Source: Nitrososphaeraceae archaeon (lineage in GTDB: Archaea > Thermoproteota > Nitrososphaeria > Nitrososphaerales > Nitrososphaeraceae). Taken from it: a stretch of DNA of 12,365 nt. Location of the stretch: the NCBI GenBank assembly GCA_030038695.1, contig JASHSN010000226.1:1-12365 (forward strand). Reading direction: 5' to 3'. The notes beneath the pieces were generated by a model. It saw only the letters and a list, made by a program, of their open reading frames with translations. It did no database searches and was not told the DNA's origin. The position numbers were made by a program, and so were the translations under genes. Below are positions 4,851-10,645 of the stretch, in pieces. How positions within the stretch are numbered: position 1 is the stretch's first letter; each line of letters begins with the position of its first letter.

Positions 4851-5474
4851 ATGGACCAGCATCAACAACAATTTAAGAGCGATTTAGAAAAGGCTTCGTC
4901 AGTGGTTAATGGCCAGCTCGCTAGATTGAAGATGCTTAATGAAAAATTCTCTGCAATGGATAAGAATTTCAGACACCAAATAGTAGCAAACATCAAGTCT
5001 GGCAATAATTCCAGAGCCAAAGCTCTTGCAGGAGAGCTATCAAATATTCGCAATGTGCAGCGGACAACACAAAATGCAGGTCTAGCACTTGAAGTGATGC
5101 TAATCCGTTTTAGTACTATCAACGAATTTGCTATGGTTTTGGACACCATCCACCCTACCATAGGCATGATCAGAGATATCCAAAGAGATATTTCTAAGGT
5201 GGTTCCAGCGGCTTCAAACGTATTCTCGGAAATGAAATCGATGACTGCAGATGTCTTGATCAATTCTGATATTAAATTAGATGCCGCAACTAAGTTTTCG
5301 GCACCTGTCGATAAAGATGCTCTTTCAATTCTAAATGAGATTGAGGGAATGCTTGAGACTGAAGCAAAAGAAAAGCTTCCCGAGGTGCCAACAGGCATCT
5401 TGGATAAGAAAATGGATATGCAGTTAGTTGAGGAGGAGGTATCCCAAACAGGTCAAATAATGATAGAAACTTAA
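4851..5474 (+). CDS. cdvB: ESCRT-III-like cell-division protein (CdvB family, Snf7 domain)
   Basis: 207 residues. Residues 8-135 form the helical Snf7 core: a long helical hairpin (ARLKMLNEKF through RAKALAGELSNIRNVQR), then LALEVMLIRFSTINEF and the helix with IHPTIGMIRDIQRDISKVVPAA, which is close to the archaeal CdvB pattern. A final helix (about 155-172) is acidic, and KLPEVP (175-180) followed by TGIL matches the proline-rich MIM2 motif by which ESCRT-III proteins bind the MIT domain of the ATPase Vps4/CdvC. CdvB proteins polymerise at the inner membrane at mid-cell and drive constriction. Thaumarchaea usually have several CdvB paralogues, and I cannot say which this is. No cdvA or cdvC gene is adjacent. 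It lies 89 bases upstream of the winged-helix/NrdD-like gene on the same strand, but each has its own promoter-like element. Confidence 0.85.
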   Translation: MDQHQQQFKSDLEKASSVVNGQLARLKMLNEKFSAMDKNFRHQIVANIKSGNNSRAKALAGELSNIRNVQRTTQNAGLALEVMLIRFSTINEFAMVLDTIHPTIGMIRDIQRDISKVVPAASNVFSEMKSMTADVLINSDIKLDAATKFSAPVDKDALSILNEIEGMLETEAKEKLPEVPTGILDKKMDMQLVEEEVSQTGQIMIET

Positions 5475-5511: not shown

Positions 5512-5521
5512 AAAATATAAT
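5512..5521 (+). promoter_or_regulatory. TATA-like box for the winged-helix/NrdD-like gene
   Basis: AAAATATAAT is centred about 48 bases before the ATG at 5564. A second AT-rich string (AGTTTTAATC, 5531-5540) is about 28 bases before the ATG and would give a leaderless transcript. Confidence 0.45.
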
Positions 5522-5563
5522 TTACAAAGTAGTTTTAATCAGGTAGTCAGAATATCGGGTGCA

Positions 5564-7720
5564 ATGGAACAGTTGAGTCATGATAATTATCCAATGCAAG
5601 TGGAATCTCCAAGAGATGGGGTGTTGGAGTCCGCTTCAAAAAGAGTTAGGATGATTTTCTCTGTTATGGCTAGTCCTAACCGAATTGATATTCTTCGTAT
5701 TTTAAATTCAAAGGGCCCGCTTACATATTCAGAGTTAAAATCTTTAGCTGGATTTAAATCGAAAAAGGAATCTGGTAAATTCGCCTATCACTTGCGAAAA
5801 CTTCTTAGACAGTCCCTTGTAGCACTCAACAAGGCGGAACGTCGCTATACGATAACTAATCTAGGCAAGCTTGTGCTAAGCCTTGCCAGACAGATCGAGG
5901 AAAGGTCGATAATCGAAAGTGGAAAAATGTATGTTAGGACCACTAAGCCGTCTATTGAAGAATTTAACTCCAATAAAATAATTCAGTCACTGGTAAGGGA
6001 GGCAAATATGCCTCTTGAACAGGCACATAAGATAACAGAAGAAGTCGAGAATAAGATATACAAATTTCAGGCCATTTATCTTACATCATCACTGATTCGC
6101 GAGACGGTGAACTCTGTTTTAATTGAACATGGGCATGAGGAATATAGAAATAAATTGGCTAGATTAGGCCTTCCAGCATCTGAAATTGTTGAGATGTTGA
6201 GTAATGCAGACTCGGCAACGAACGGTCTTGAAACCCTAATGTTAAAAGCCTCACATTCAATATTTTCCGAACATCTTCTGATCAATACTCTTCCTAAAGA
6301 CATTGCGGATATGCATTTGGCTGGCGAGATGAATATATCTAATAGTGGAACTTGGGGATTGATCCCTGACACCATTTTTCTAGACATCGCTGACCTTCGT
6401 GAGAATGCGCTGGATCTTAAAGGGAAATTTTTGAACGTATCAAGGGTTTATCTTCCGGGTATCAATAATTCTAGCGACTTTGAGACTTGCCTATCATTGA
6501 TGATTTCTCTCCTGAGTAGAGAAGCCTCAACAGAAGTGGTATTTGAGGGCATTCTTCCAATGATTTTAAAGCAAATGAAGGAGCCTGAGAAAATAGAATC
6601 AAGATTTGCTAATGCACTTATGCTATCTTCAATAGCCCCTAGTCATACCCAGTCAGGATTACCACTCACCACAATAACAATTCCCACTGTTGGACAGGAC
6701 GCTACGTTAGTTGCTGCCTTATTGAACGGTTATCGGAGATACGTAGAATCTACTCCTATCCCTCGCATTGGCCTCTCGTTGGTCTATCGTGATATGGACG
6801 ATCAACTTAACCAGCTTAGCTATCATTTAGACCACATCTTGTCTGTGGTAAGAAGCGGCGGCATCATCTCGCTTTCTCATGACGAGGGATTAAGAGCAAA
6901 TAACGGTATCCGAAAAGCAATGGGAAAACGCTCCGGTACTGCTGCAACTCTTCAATCGCTCTCCATTAATCTGCCAAGACTTGCATACCAGTCGAACAAA
7001 GATGAAACTTATTTCAGAGCTAGACTCGCTTTGATGATGAAGCCCGCGATAGCAGCGCTCAATATTAGGAGGAAGGCTGTCATAGACCTTATTAGAAAAG
7101 GCACTGCTCCTGCTCTCAGTATCAATACTGACTTTATGCAGAGTGGGACAACAAGTCTCGTAATTAACCTTGTAGGTGCCCAGGAATCTGTTAGTGATAT
7201 CTTGGGATATCAGCCTAAGAACAATGGGATGGAGGTTTTGCAGAAAGTACTGAAGACCTCTGTAGATGTTGCTATCGATCAGGGGAGATCTATGGGAGCA
7301 GACGCAGTAGGTGTTGCAATGGTATCCGATGACGGCGCTGCTAGGTTCGCAGCTCTAGATTCAGATAAATATGGAAGGGGATATTTGAATTCGACTCAAA
7401 ATTCAACCACGTATTCGCAGGGATTAACTTTGTATGGTGAACAATTAATTTCATCCAATGATGACAATTCTGGTTCTGTGATAGAAGAATGTCTTTCAAT
7501 CGATAAGCTTCTGACTGGTGGGCTATCTGTGAGTCTTGATGTCACAGAGCTCGCTTCGAATAATCTGCGCCTAGGACAGGCAATCGAAGCAGCATCGCGT
7601 ATCCCATTTTTCCGTCCAGTTATGAAGCTCATGGTATGCAATAGCTGTGGAAAAAGAGAGTCGGGATATTTGGAAAGATGTGGATTCTGCAGGTCGAATA
7701 ACGTTCTGCCGATTCGTTAA
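5564..7720 (+). CDS. Winged-helix + ATP-cone + catalytically dead NrdD-like protein, candidate nucleotide-sensing regulator
   Basis: 718 residues in three parts. Residues 25-110 are an ArsR-like winged helix (MASPNRIDILRILNSKG, then the KFAYHLRKLL recognition region and a YTITNLGK wing). Residues 122-204 are an ATP-cone (KPSIEEFNSNKIIQSLVREA through RNKLARLGLP), the (d)ATP-sensing domain of reductases and NrdR. Residues 220-690 resemble class III reductase NrdD: DIADMHLAGEMNI, INLPRLAY (468-475), RFAALDSDKYG, GYLNST and LTGG (650-653). A zinc ribbon ends the protein (C692, C695, C706, C709). Class III catalysis needs a glycyl radical after that ribbon and active-site cysteines. Here only nine residues follow C709, with no glycine, and the body has only C309 and C643. 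I infer a regulator of dNTP supply, most likely of nrdJ next door; the target is not shown by sequence. Domain calls are firmer than the role. Confidence 0.82.
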   Translation: MEQLSHDNYPMQVESPRDGVLESASKRVRMIFSVMASPNRIDILRILNSKGPLTYSELKSLAGFKSKKESGKFAYHLRKLLRQSLVALNKAERRYTITNLGKLVLSLARQIEERSIIESGKMYVRTTKPSIEEFNSNKIIQSLVREANMPLEQAHKITEEVENKIYKFQAIYLTSSLIRETVNSVLIEHGHEEYRNKLARLGLPASEIVEMLSNADSATNGLETLMLKASHSIFSEHLLINTLPKDIADMHLAGEMNISNSGTWGLIPDTIFLDIADLRENALDLKGKFLNVSRVYLPGINNSSDFETCLSLMISLLSREASTEVVFEGILPMILKQMKEPEKIESRFANALMLSSIAPSHTQSGLPLTTITIPTVGQDATLVAALLNGYRRYVESTPIPRIGLSLVYRDMDDQLNQLSYHLDHILSVVRSGGIISLSHDEGLRANNGIRKAMGKRSGTAATLQSLSINLPRLAYQSNKDETYFRARLALMMKPAIAALNIRRKAVIDLIRKGTAPALSINTDFMQSGTTSLVINLVGAQESVSDILGYQPKNNGMEVLQKVLKTSVDVAIDQGRSMGADAVGVAMVSDDGAARFAALDSDKYGRGYLNSTQNSTTYSQGLTLYGEQLISSNDDNSGSVIEECLSIDKLLTGGLSVSLDVTELASNNLRLGQAIEAASRIPFFRPVMKLMVCNSCGKRESGYLERCGFCRSNNVLPIR

Positions 7721-7735
7721 TTTGTTTTGAACAAA
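7721..7735 (+). repeat. Short inverted repeat after the NrdD-like gene
   Basis: TTTGTT (7721-7726) and AACAAA (7730-7735) are perfect reverse complements with a 3-base loop, directly after the stop codon. It may be a weak terminator hairpin or a regulator site. Confidence 0.35.
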
Positions 7736-7768
7736 CTTCGAATATGTGGGTATTTCTCAGACTTCGAA
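7735..7768 (+). repeat. Direct repeat ACTTCGAA x2 upstream of nrdJ
   Basis: ACTTCGAA occurs at 7735-7742 and 7761-7768, 26 bases apart, each holding the palindrome TTCGAA. They are about 130-160 bases before the nrdJ start, so they could be distal regulator sites. Confidence 0.35.
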
Positions 7769-7837
7769 ATTCGGTAGCTATAGATGACATGATTTACAGG
7801 ATGCGACCATTTTTCTTGAGGAAGTTAGCTGTTCTTA

Positions 7838-7881
7838 AATCAACTATTTTTCAGATGAAATACTTCAAATACTTGTTGATT
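7838..7881 (+). repeat. Widely spaced 7-bp inverted repeat in the nrdJ promoter region
   Basis: AATCAAC (7838-7844) and GTTGATT (7875-7881) are perfect reverse complements with a 30-base spacer. The right arm lies inside the tighter inverted repeat at 7864-7890. Such spacing is unusual for a single operator, so this may be chance. Confidence 0.25.
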
Positions 7882-7890
7882 CAATTTGAA
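7864..7890 (+). promoter_or_regulatory. Inverted repeat overlapping the nrdJ core promoter, candidate operator
   Basis: TTCAAAT (7864-7870) and ATTTGAA (7884-7890) are perfect reverse complements with a 13-base spacer and arm centres 20 bases apart, about two helical turns. The left arm is about 28 bases before the nrdJ ATG at 7895, where the TATA box should be (no other strong TATA match is seen), and the right arm ends four bases before the ATG. A dimeric winged-helix protein here would block TBP and the transcription start. The left arm also falls in a tandem AAATACTT repeat (7858-7865 and 7867-7874). Confidence 0.4.
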
Positions 7891-7894
7891 TGTC

Positions 7895-10645
7895 ATGGCC
7901 GGTGTTACTGAGATTAATGACCAGAAAGAGAATTTGATTATTCATATACGAAAGAGAGACGGAAGAGAGGTGGATTTTGAACCACCCAAGATATCGGATG
8001 CGATTTACAAAGCCCTTGTCGCTACAGGTATACCTGATTTTCCACTCTCAGAAAAACTGGCCAAGAAAGTAGTCCAAAAGATGATCCATCATGGATATGG
8101 ATCGACAGAAATTCCAAGTGTCGAGGACGTTCAGGACATGGTGGAATCGATCCTTATCGAAGAAGGCTTGTCTGAGACAGCAAAAGCGTTCATTCTCTAT
8201 AGACACGAGAGACGCAAACTTCGCGACGAAAAGATGAAAATTTTAAACAAGAAAGTTTTAGATGAAGTAGACAAGGTCTTTGACATTAATTCTCTGAGGG
8301 TTTTAGCCGCTCGCTATCTGCTGAGGGATGACAATAATGAAATAATAGAAGGTCCGAAGCAAATGTTCGAAAGAGTAGCTACTCTTGTGGCCATTCCAGA
8401 TATCATGCATGATGCTCGCGTGTTTGCTTTATCGACTGACAAGAAACCTAACCGAAGCGGAGAGGAAGCAGAAAAATATTATTACAAATTGAATTACTTT
8501 GATCTTAAGCTAAAAATTGGCAAATATTATTTGAACAAGTATCATTTCGAATCGATAATTAGGCATTACGTTGAACTTGCAAAAGAAGGACATACGAAAA
8601 TCTCGTTCAAGGAATTACTTACATTAATCGCTGAAGGTAAGTTTGCATCGTTTGCAGAAAGAATAAAAGAATATTATAATCTAATGGTATCGAGAGACTT
8701 TCTTCCAAACACGCCAACATTAATGAATGCGGGTGCACGCCTAGGCCAGCTCTCTGCCTGCTTTGTTCTTGATATGCCAGATGATATGCAAGCCATAATG
8801 AAGTCATCGACAGATGCTGCAATGATCTTCAAATCTGGAGGAGGCGTAGGCATAAACTATTCCAACCTACGACCTGAAGGAGATATAGTGGCGTCAACTT
8901 CAGGTGTCGCCTCTGGGCCCACATCTTTTATGAAAATTATAGATACCATTACGGATGTTGTGAAGCAGGGTGGAAAGCGACGAGGAGCAAACATGGGTAT
9001 TTTGGACGTTTGGCACCCTGATGTAGAAAAGTTCGTAACAGCCAAAACAAAACCCGGCGCTTTTGAGAACTTTAACGTAAGCGTCGGTTTCTGGGATGAT
9101 TTTTGGCTATCCCTTATAAATAAGGACAACGTAAAGTATACACTACGCAATCCCAGAACCGGTGAGCCTATAAAGCAAATTGATTCACATGCCCTAATGG
9201 ATCTGATTTCTTTCAGCGCCTGGAAGAGCGCTGAACCGGGCATTATTTTCTTTGACAACATAAATAAATACAATCCATGTATCAACGCCAAGGGCGGCCC
9301 AATACGCGCAACTAATCCCTGCGGCGAACAATCACTATATCCCAATGAATCCTGTAATTTAGGCTCAATAAATCTTGCGAACTTTGTAAAACGTAAAGCA
9401 GACGGAATCTATGAATTCGACTGGCAGAGGTATGAGCAAACTATTAGGCTCGCATCAAGGTTTCTAGATAATATCATTGATATAAACAAGTATCCTATCG
9501 AAGAAATTGATGCTAACACGAAGCTCACTAGACGAATCGGCCTCGGAATAATGGGCCTAGCAGATCTTCTTTTCTTGCTCAGAATCCCCTACAATTCAAA
9601 GCCTGGTTATGAATTTATGAATAAATTAGCAGAAGCTATGTCATACTATAGCATGGAAGAAAGTGTCGCCATAGCTAAGACAAGAGGCGCATTTCCCCTG
9701 TTCGGAGAGACGGATTATGTCAAGGGGAGAATCCCTGTTGCAGGCTACTATGAACTACCAAATGAGCTACATACATACGACTGGAAATCGCTTATTGAAA
9801 AGATCAAAAAACATGGGATTAGAAACTCTTGGACCTCTACTATAGCTCCCACAGGCAGTTTGTCGATGATAGCTGACACATCAAATGGAATTGAACCTAT
9901 GTTTGCTGTTGTTTTTGAAAAACGCGTTACGGTTGGCAGATTCTTTTATACGAATAGAATTTTTGAAGGCGCATTAAGAGAAAATAGTCTATACGACGAT
10001 GAAATACTTGGTAAGATTTCCAATAATTACGGTTCCACACGCGGCCTTCATGATGTCCCTGGATGGATGCAGAAGATCTTCGTTACTGCAATCGACATCC
10101 ACTGGATCGATCATTTAGTGGCACAAGCAACATGGCAGAAGTGGATTGCTAACGCAATTGCTAAGACGATTAATATGCCTGGAGACGTAACTGCCGAAGA
10201 CGTAAAGTGCGCATATCTACTATCACATGATCTAGGCTTAAAGGGGATTACTGTATACAGAGATGGCTCAAGACACGAACAAGTTCTTCACATTACAGGT
10301 GACAACACTAGAGAACGCAGATTTTCCGTTGCTCCAAGTCGATATGCAGTAGACTATATACATGAAAATGTTTCCGAACCCTATGTGCTTAGGTCATTAG
10401 AACAAATCTTGAAGGATACTTCACCAGATCAGAACGAACTACTCGATAAAGACCTATTGAGTCTAGAACACCAACAACATTCCGAAATTGAACCAGCTAG
10501 CGCTTTGACGCATCCTGGTCCTTCAAGCTCACAAGAAGAGTTATCGGAGGATGGACAATGTCCTTCTTGTCAAGCAAAATTAATAATAAGTGAAGGATGC
10601 GATCTCTGCATCGAATGCGGTTTTAGTAGCTGCATATCTGGTTAA
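7895..10645 (+). CDS. nrdJ: Adenosylcobalamin-dependent (class II) ribonucleotide reductase
   Basis: 916 residues. This enzyme reduces ribonucleotides to deoxyribonucleotides with a thiyl radical generated from coenzyme B12 and needs no oxygen or second subunit. Residues about 14-112 form an ATP-cone (IRKRDGREVDFEPPKISDAI), the dATP/ATP activity switch. The catalytic barrel shows FLPNTPTLMNAG, then C289 in LSACFVLD (redox partner C487 in SCNLGSINL), SGGGVGINYSNLRPEGD, the N474-x-C476-x-E478 triad in NPCGEQ, and APTGSLSMIADTSNGIEP (651-668). After DLGLKGITVYRDGSR the catalytic core ends. An 80-90 residue Ser/Glu-rich linker leads to a Cys-rich tail with six Cys (889-913), which would re-reduce the active-site disulphide. 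I chose ATG 7895 over an in-frame TTG at 7886, which adds only three residues. The gene follows the winged-helix/NrdD-like gene by 174 bases and probably has its own promoter. Confidence 0.95.
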   Translation: MAGVTEINDQKENLIIHIRKRDGREVDFEPPKISDAIYKALVATGIPDFPLSEKLAKKVVQKMIHHGYGSTEIPSVEDVQDMVESILIEEGLSETAKAFILYRHERRKLRDEKMKILNKKVLDEVDKVFDINSLRVLAARYLLRDDNNEIIEGPKQMFERVATLVAIPDIMHDARVFALSTDKKPNRSGEEAEKYYYKLNYFDLKLKIGKYYLNKYHFESIIRHYVELAKEGHTKISFKELLTLIAEGKFASFAERIKEYYNLMVSRDFLPNTPTLMNAGARLGQLSACFVLDMPDDMQAIMKSSTDAAMIFKSGGGVGINYSNLRPEGDIVASTSGVASGPTSFMKIIDTITDVVKQGGKRRGANMGILDVWHPDVEKFVTAKTKPGAFENFNVSVGFWDDFWLSLINKDNVKYTLRNPRTGEPIKQIDSHALMDLISFSAWKSAEPGIIFFDNINKYNPCINAKGGPIRATNPCGEQSLYPNESCNLGSINLANFVKRKADGIYEFDWQRYEQTIRLASRFLDNIIDINKYPIEEIDANTKLTRRIGLGIMGLADLLFLLRIPYNSKPGYEFMNKLAEAMSYYSMEESVAIAKTRGAFPLFGETDYVKGRIPVAGYYELPNELHTYDWKSLIEKIKKHGIRNSWTSTIAPTGSLSMIADTSNGIEPMFAVVFEKRVTVGRFFYTNRIFEGALRENSLYDDEILGKISNNYGSTRGLHDVPGWMQKIFVTAIDIHWIDHLVAQATWQKWIANAIAKTINMPGDVTAEDVKCAYLLSHDLGLKGITVYRDGSRHEQVLHITGDNTRERRFSVAPSRYAVDYIHENVSEPYVLRSLEQILKDTSPDQNELLDKDLLSLEHQQHSEIEPASALTHPGPSSSQEELSEDGQCPSCQAKLIISEGCDLCIECGFSSCISG

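Follow-up and report, generated by a model that had tools for sequence, protein, structure and literature searches.

A winged helix, an ATP-cone and an NrdD fold in one protein

The window analysed here, a 12,365-nucleotide stretch from a soil archaeon of the Nitrososphaeraceae, carries a 718-codon gene whose product joins an N-terminal winged helix, an ATP-cone and a body resembling the class III ribonucleotide reductase NrdD (henceforth the pseudo-NrdD protein). It is followed 165 bp downstream, on the same strand, by the start of nrdJ, the gene for a class II reductase. A sequence-only reading had proposed this domain order and this neighbour, and had taken the protein for a possible archaeal counterpart of the repressor NrdR. 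Both the domains and their order were borne out by Pfam and by fold comparison. The N-terminal part matches DUF7347 and HTH_20, and these matches, together with those to the ATP-cone (PF03477, 43.8 bits against a cut-off of 25.8) and to NRDD (residues 456-713), all lie above curated cut-offs (Table 1). Residues 24-120 share their fold with ArsR, MarR, HxlR and RosR winged-helix regulators, and the helix-helix-helix-strand-strand topology agrees with that of solved regulators. Unlike these, the pseudo-NrdD protein is fused to a cone and a reductase body and falls outside the curated ArsR families (NF033788, 23.3 bits against 55; HTH_5, E 0.85). Fold and alignment comparison further revealed that the body keeps the NrdD barrel with its C-terminal zinc ribbon (structure 1h7b is presumably that of the T4 enzyme). 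In the window's genome (G000, 78.5% complete) the gene holds the single NRDD match, while two ATP-cones are found, one in its product and one in nrdJ.

We next turn to the catalytic residues, counted over 40 aligned rows: the window plus 39 of the 40 fetched loci, the only ones in which the complete frame was read. All are strong matches; L086, whose frame lies in two pieces, was excluded, and the sequence of L085 stops ahead of the zinc ribbon. The active-site cysteine of NrdD, on the first barrel strand, is lost from its column in 40 of 40 rows (L081 has a cysteine one column away) and present in all seven neighbouring NrdDs in the alignment. Glycine followed by tyrosine at the aligned radical-loop columns occurs in none of the 40 rows: the columns are empty in 16, four distant loci (L076, L077, L079 and L094) have the glycine without the tyrosine, and L067 has a Gly-Tyr one column off. 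The glutamate of the TPAE motif is mostly gone as well. The window's protein ends directly after the zinc ribbon, and its relatives stop before the radical loop. On the NCBIfam NrdD model it scores 47.1 bits against a cut-off of 326.35, which two of the seven neighbouring NrdDs pass with 521.3 and 532.0 bits. In a sample of 81 genomes from the window's order, NRDD is matched at E ≤ 0.001 in 74, of which G408 alone holds a strong full-length NrdD (527.9 bits; next 142.5). NrdG exceeds its cut-off in 0 of the 81, a weak test in which only 3 of 14 controls pass, and weaker matches occur in 57. From its residues the body looks catalytically dead, as the sequence-only reading had held. Of the sequence findings which that reading had named as telling against its view, the lack of a winged-helix match did not come about, and an intact glycyl-radical site was found in none of the relatives read. 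In a tree of the 40 rows and only seven NrdDs, drawn without support values and not used to prove a single origin, the 40 rows group together, separate from two NrdD groups.

The loss of catalytic residues is not decay, because the ratio of nonsynonymous to synonymous divergence (dN/dS) is low: 0.00 for the winged helix, 0.013 for the cone, 0.15 for the body and 0.118 overall. The winged helix shows zero amino-acid changes relative to L003 at a synonymous divergence (dS) of 0.79.

Table 1. Features of the window and the evidence on which each is placed
Feature	Positions	Strand	Basis
Winged-helix / ATP-cone / pseudo-NrdD gene, 718 aa	5564..7720	+	open reading frame, profile and fold comparison
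Winged helix, residues 31-105 (DUF7347 / HTH_20), the protein's most conserved part	5654..5878	+	Pfam, fold, dN/dS
ATP-cone, residues 122-194	5927..6145	+	Pfam
NrdD-fold body, residues 220-718, without active-site Cys or glycyl-radical loop	6221..7717	+	
C-terminal zinc ribbon, Cys 692, 695, 706 and 709; 9 residues, then protein end	7637..7690	+	
nrdJ, encoding a class II ribonucleotide reductase that also carries an ATP-cone; presumed target of the pseudo-NrdD protein	7886..10645	+	
Spacer holding the nrdJ promoter	7721..7885	+	
CdvB-like (ESCRT-III-type) gene, directly 5' of the pseudo-NrdD gene	4851..5474	+	
Conserved element TTTACAAAGTAGTTTTAATCA in the pseudo-NrdD gene's own promoter	5521..5541	+	fixed distance to the ATG in Nitrososphaeraceae

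Reductase neighbours and spread in the phylum

The neighbour is conserved along with the gene. Among 63 loci of close relatives, 56 extend at least 1 kb downstream (L020/L088 and L031/L061 are duplicate views), and in 54 of the 56 the next gene is nrdJ or a class II relative in the same orientation. Of 27 loci from more distant relatives, seven (families f27, f37 and f57) have an intact nrdD as the following gene and one has a class II reductase (L067, whose neighbour scores 1198.4 against 961 on the B12-dependent reductase model); two others (L071 and L076) end too early to show a neighbour. Since the adjoining reductase is class II in close relatives and class III elsewhere, the protein is tied to a reductase irrespective of class.

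Downstream genes include those for aspartate carbamoyltransferase, pyrB and/or pyrI, in 17 of the 27 distant loci, four of which have them behind nrdD (L069, L070, L082 and L091); in 5 of 13 Nitrososphaeria-type loci they follow nrdJ (L058, L059, L064, L089 and L090). Six pyrB/pyrI open reading frames read with NCBIfam met the cut-offs for this enzyme. This suggests an old order of regulator, reductase and pyrB/pyrI, in which a reductase of one class (III or II) later gave way to the other or disappeared. In the loci that have pyrB/pyrI and no reductase (L065, L066, L068, L072-L075, L077, L084, L092, L094, L096 and L097), all from distant families, these genes mostly run convergent to the pseudo-NrdD gene. 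On the other side, a CdvB-like relative stands directly 5' of the gene in 26 of the 63 close-relative loci, the window included, so that a cell-division gene and genes of dNTP supply are clustered. The window's CdvB-like gene has a weak Snf7 match below the Pfam cut-off and scores 65.7 bits for CdvB1/B2 (cut-off 350).

Genome profile searches, which covered the phylum only, revealed matches to the A1 profile at E ≤ 1e-40 in 220 of 398 genomes (185 of the 315 better ones) and at E ≤ 1e-6 in 257 (207 of the better ones). We regard 220 as the safer count, because plain NrdDs may be among the 37 further matches, which are weaker than 1e-40. In the window's own order all 74 listed genomes match, and genomes without a match are first listed outside it; judging by how the table is sorted, the order presumably holds no matchless genome beyond those listed. 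A contig scan with six words of one protein returned 23 loci, all Nitrososphaeria by title. One contig, from Candidatus Nitrosopolaris wilkensis, carries a broken second copy of the gene (L024:4714-5511), where a CdvB-like gene begins and then passes into fragments of the pseudo-NrdD gene, with integrase- and virus-like open reading frames nearby.

A proposed nucleotide-sensing transcription factor

We consider it likely that in the pseudo-NrdD protein a dead class III reductase has become a transcription factor that senses nucleotides and acts on reductase genes. In the mechanism that we propose, the winged helix would bind DNA as a dimer and the ATP-cone would read ATP and dATP, while the body, having kept its fold and lost nucleotide reduction, would probably act as a dimerisation scaffold and possibly offer a second effector site. 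Binding of dATP rather than ATP would rearrange the DNA-binding domains, and this rearrangement would alter how the adjoining reductase gene, nrdJ in the window and nrdD elsewhere, and the regulator's own gene are expressed. The domains, the fold, the lost catalytic residues, the selection and the adjacency to reductases of both classes are observed; DNA binding, the ligand, repression, the targets, the oligomeric state and the direction of control are what we infer. A bolder version, which we hold only tentatively and think rather doubtful, makes the body a full gauge of the dNTP pool. In addition to the ATP and dATP read by the cone, the body's former specificity site would still take up effector dNTPs, perhaps along with substrates; pool size and balance would be integrated and passed to the winged helix, which would adjust reductase genes and further genes of nucleotide metabolism or replication as the archaeal cell cycle proceeds. 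Such a protein would be a separate class of regulator, found in much of the phylum.

Several observations weigh against a transcription factor for reductase genes. Foldseek returned no winged-helix chain at E ≤ 0.001. Gene adjacency alone does not prove a target, and it is not universal: nrdJ is missing downstream in L013 (2.1 kb, other genes) and L018 (1.5 kb), 13 of the 27 distant loci adjoin aspartate carbamoyltransferase genes without a reductase, and four (L079, L080, L081 and L093) adjoin neither. No site shared by the promoters of the regulator and of nrdJ was found, either. When the best 18-base match between the regulator promoter and the nrdJ spacer was compared, genome by genome, with 30 mononucleotide shuffles, only one of 52 loci (L047) exceeded its shuffles, and this was not taken as evidence for an operator common to both promoters. 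The comparison is a crude sequence proxy for the nucleotide-dependent oligomerisation of NrdR and its binding to paired boxes before reductase genes.

The comparison with NrdR also bears on this question. According to PMC9110341 and PMC12176259, NrdR represses reductase genes, often including its own gene, and senses nucleotides through its cone; these papers, PMC12051234 and PMC2795772 describe it as rare in archaea, and RNRdb counted six archaeal NrdRs. The two proteins have in common a DNA-binding domain with an ATP-cone, genes beside reductases of several classes and probable autoregulation. They differ in that NrdR begins with a zinc ribbon where the pseudo-NrdD protein has a winged helix, and in length (140-220 against 718 residues), an entire pseudo-reductase following the cone here. 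NrdR (TIGR00244) exceeds its cut-off in 35 of the 398 phylum genomes, all of them in family f5 except G305 (f37); it does so in no genome of the window's order and has no match in G000. A further point against our reading is that 34 of these 35 genomes also carry the pseudo-NrdD protein at E ≤ 1e-40 (the 35th, G196, at 3.3e-22); in G305 its gene adjoins nrdD (L078). Strict replacement of NrdR was therefore rejected, as both coexist in f5. Of the proposal of an archaeal NrdR counterpart, the link to reductases gained, since the same architecture also stands beside intact nrdD. A simple stand-in for NrdR did not hold, because of this coexistence and of the 13 distant loci next to aspartate carbamoyltransferase genes. 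If our reading is true, the protein is NrdR-like in role; it is not NrdR by descent, nor a working NrdD, from which its extra winged helix also sets it apart.

Other targets or modes of action have to be weighed. The protein might control other nucleotide genes, namely those for making pyrimidines (pyrB/pyrI) or those of a replication regulon, with the reductase a member or a bystander. The frequent pyrB/pyrI genes downstream and the GATC arrays that sister family f2 carries on the pseudo-NrdD gene, nrdJ and RFC/GINS (see below) speak for such targets, but the mostly convergent pyrB can have no promoter in common with the pseudo-NrdD gene, and the window's family has no GATC arrays although its winged helix is nearly identical; we consider this unlikely. 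Pseudo-enzymes that regulate active relatives are common, and the dead reductase could instead act on protein, throttling NrdJ or NrdD by binding it, for example through contact between the cones or in the place of an inactive partner, with the winged helix making protein or minor DNA contacts. This precedent, the kept reductase fold and the strict adjacency to reductases of two classes fit such a role. Yet the most conserved part is the winged helix, whose invariance relative to L003 would be puzzling if it had no target on DNA, and a partner belonging to class II or class III depending on the lineage would present different surfaces. We judge action on protein distinctly unlikely.

A divergent yet working class III reductase, as automatic annotation would have it, would account for the full fold, the zinc ribbon, the NRDD match above its cut-off the scattered radical-column glycines and the displaced Gly-Tyr of L067. 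It is refuted, unless another radical site exists, by the missing cysteine and aligned Gly-Tyr, with the low NCBIfam score, the early stop of the window's relatives and, as a weak test, the NrdG result pointing the same way, and we hold it highly improbable. That the gene is a decaying, functionless nrdD relic is barely credible: the catalytic residues are gone and one Nitrosopolaris genome has a broken fragment, but selection on the protein and retention throughout the listed genomes of the order refute it.

We return to the nucleotide-sensing transcription factor. A literature search of open-licence papers found no published account of the pseudo-NrdD protein, and reductase gene control in this archaeal phylum is, as far as we found, undescribed. 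Judged by its domains, the protein is probably an unrecognised nucleotide-sensing gene switch in about half of the phylum genomes searched. If this is true, a metabolic enzyme has been turned into a sensor controlling the gene for the enzyme that took over its function, unrelated parts have given rise to an NrdR-like logic, and proteins of ammonia-oxidising archaea that are liable to be named anaerobic reductases are regulators.

Promoter elements and tetranucleotide arrays

The pseudo-NrdD gene's own promoter is the most conserved of the five compared. Across 17 Nitrososphaeraceae loci the last 60 nt before the gene have a mean identity of 0.73, against 0.46 for nrdJ (12 loci), 0.31 for the CdvB-like gene (17), 0.37 for a thiolase gene (14) and 0.31 for an OB-fold gene (14). 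Its element TTTACAAAGTAGTTTTAATCA is a candidate core promoter and/or operator of the gene. Five loci (L007, L008, L010, L012 and L060) have a perfect 16-bp palindrome, TTGACCTTTTGGTCAA, about 80-90 bp before the gene and past the CdvB-like stop, with AAAA in the centre of the L010 version; it is a candidate terminator hairpin or operator.

Sister family f2, presumably Nitrosopumilaceae, carries helically phased GATC arrays, with sites about 10.5 or 21 bp apart (L031-L057, L062, L085 and L087; L105:5962-6137). In 30 f2 loci, the 150 bp around the pseudo-NrdD start (130 before, 20 after) hold 93 GATC against 19.7 in Markov shuffles, and the spacer to nrdJ holds 112 against 34.6; the group contrasted with f2 (without L061, itself an f2 locus) has 5 over 3150 bp and 12 over 5477 bp. 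Before the f2 gene, 14 of 60 spacings are 10-11 bp and another 14 are 20-22 bp, and the best period is 10.25-10.75 (periods 6-16; resultant 0.48, 59 distances), for which no significance is claimed as the sequences are related. In one genome (G114; 1,198,001 of 1,713,078 bases read, the pseudo-NrdD locus included on purpose), the maximum over 872 upstream regions is seven GATC, in the shared promoter of the RFC small subunit and GINS (Sld5). The pseudo-NrdD gene follows with five, two other regions have four, and nrdJ is among 15 with three. The GINS array has 4-8 GATC in 24 of 24 f2 genomes and 0-1 in all five genomes of the window's family. GATC was rejected as the regulator's operator, being enriched in f2 and not in the window's family; since the winged helix is near-identical across both families, the GATC reader is probably another protein. 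The f2 arrays possibly mark a replication regulon with a separate reader, perhaps in a methylation-dependent way.

In the window's family, AGCT possibly takes the place of GATC. The CdvB-like promoter (about 100 bp upstream of 4851), which heads the cluster of CdvB-like gene, regulator and nrdJ, is AGCT-rich over 17 Nitrososphaeraceae loci, with 49 sites where 13.9 are expected and many of them 11 bp from the next. The family's GINS promoters hold 10 against 3.6 expected, and the pseudo-NrdD gene 1 against 4.8.
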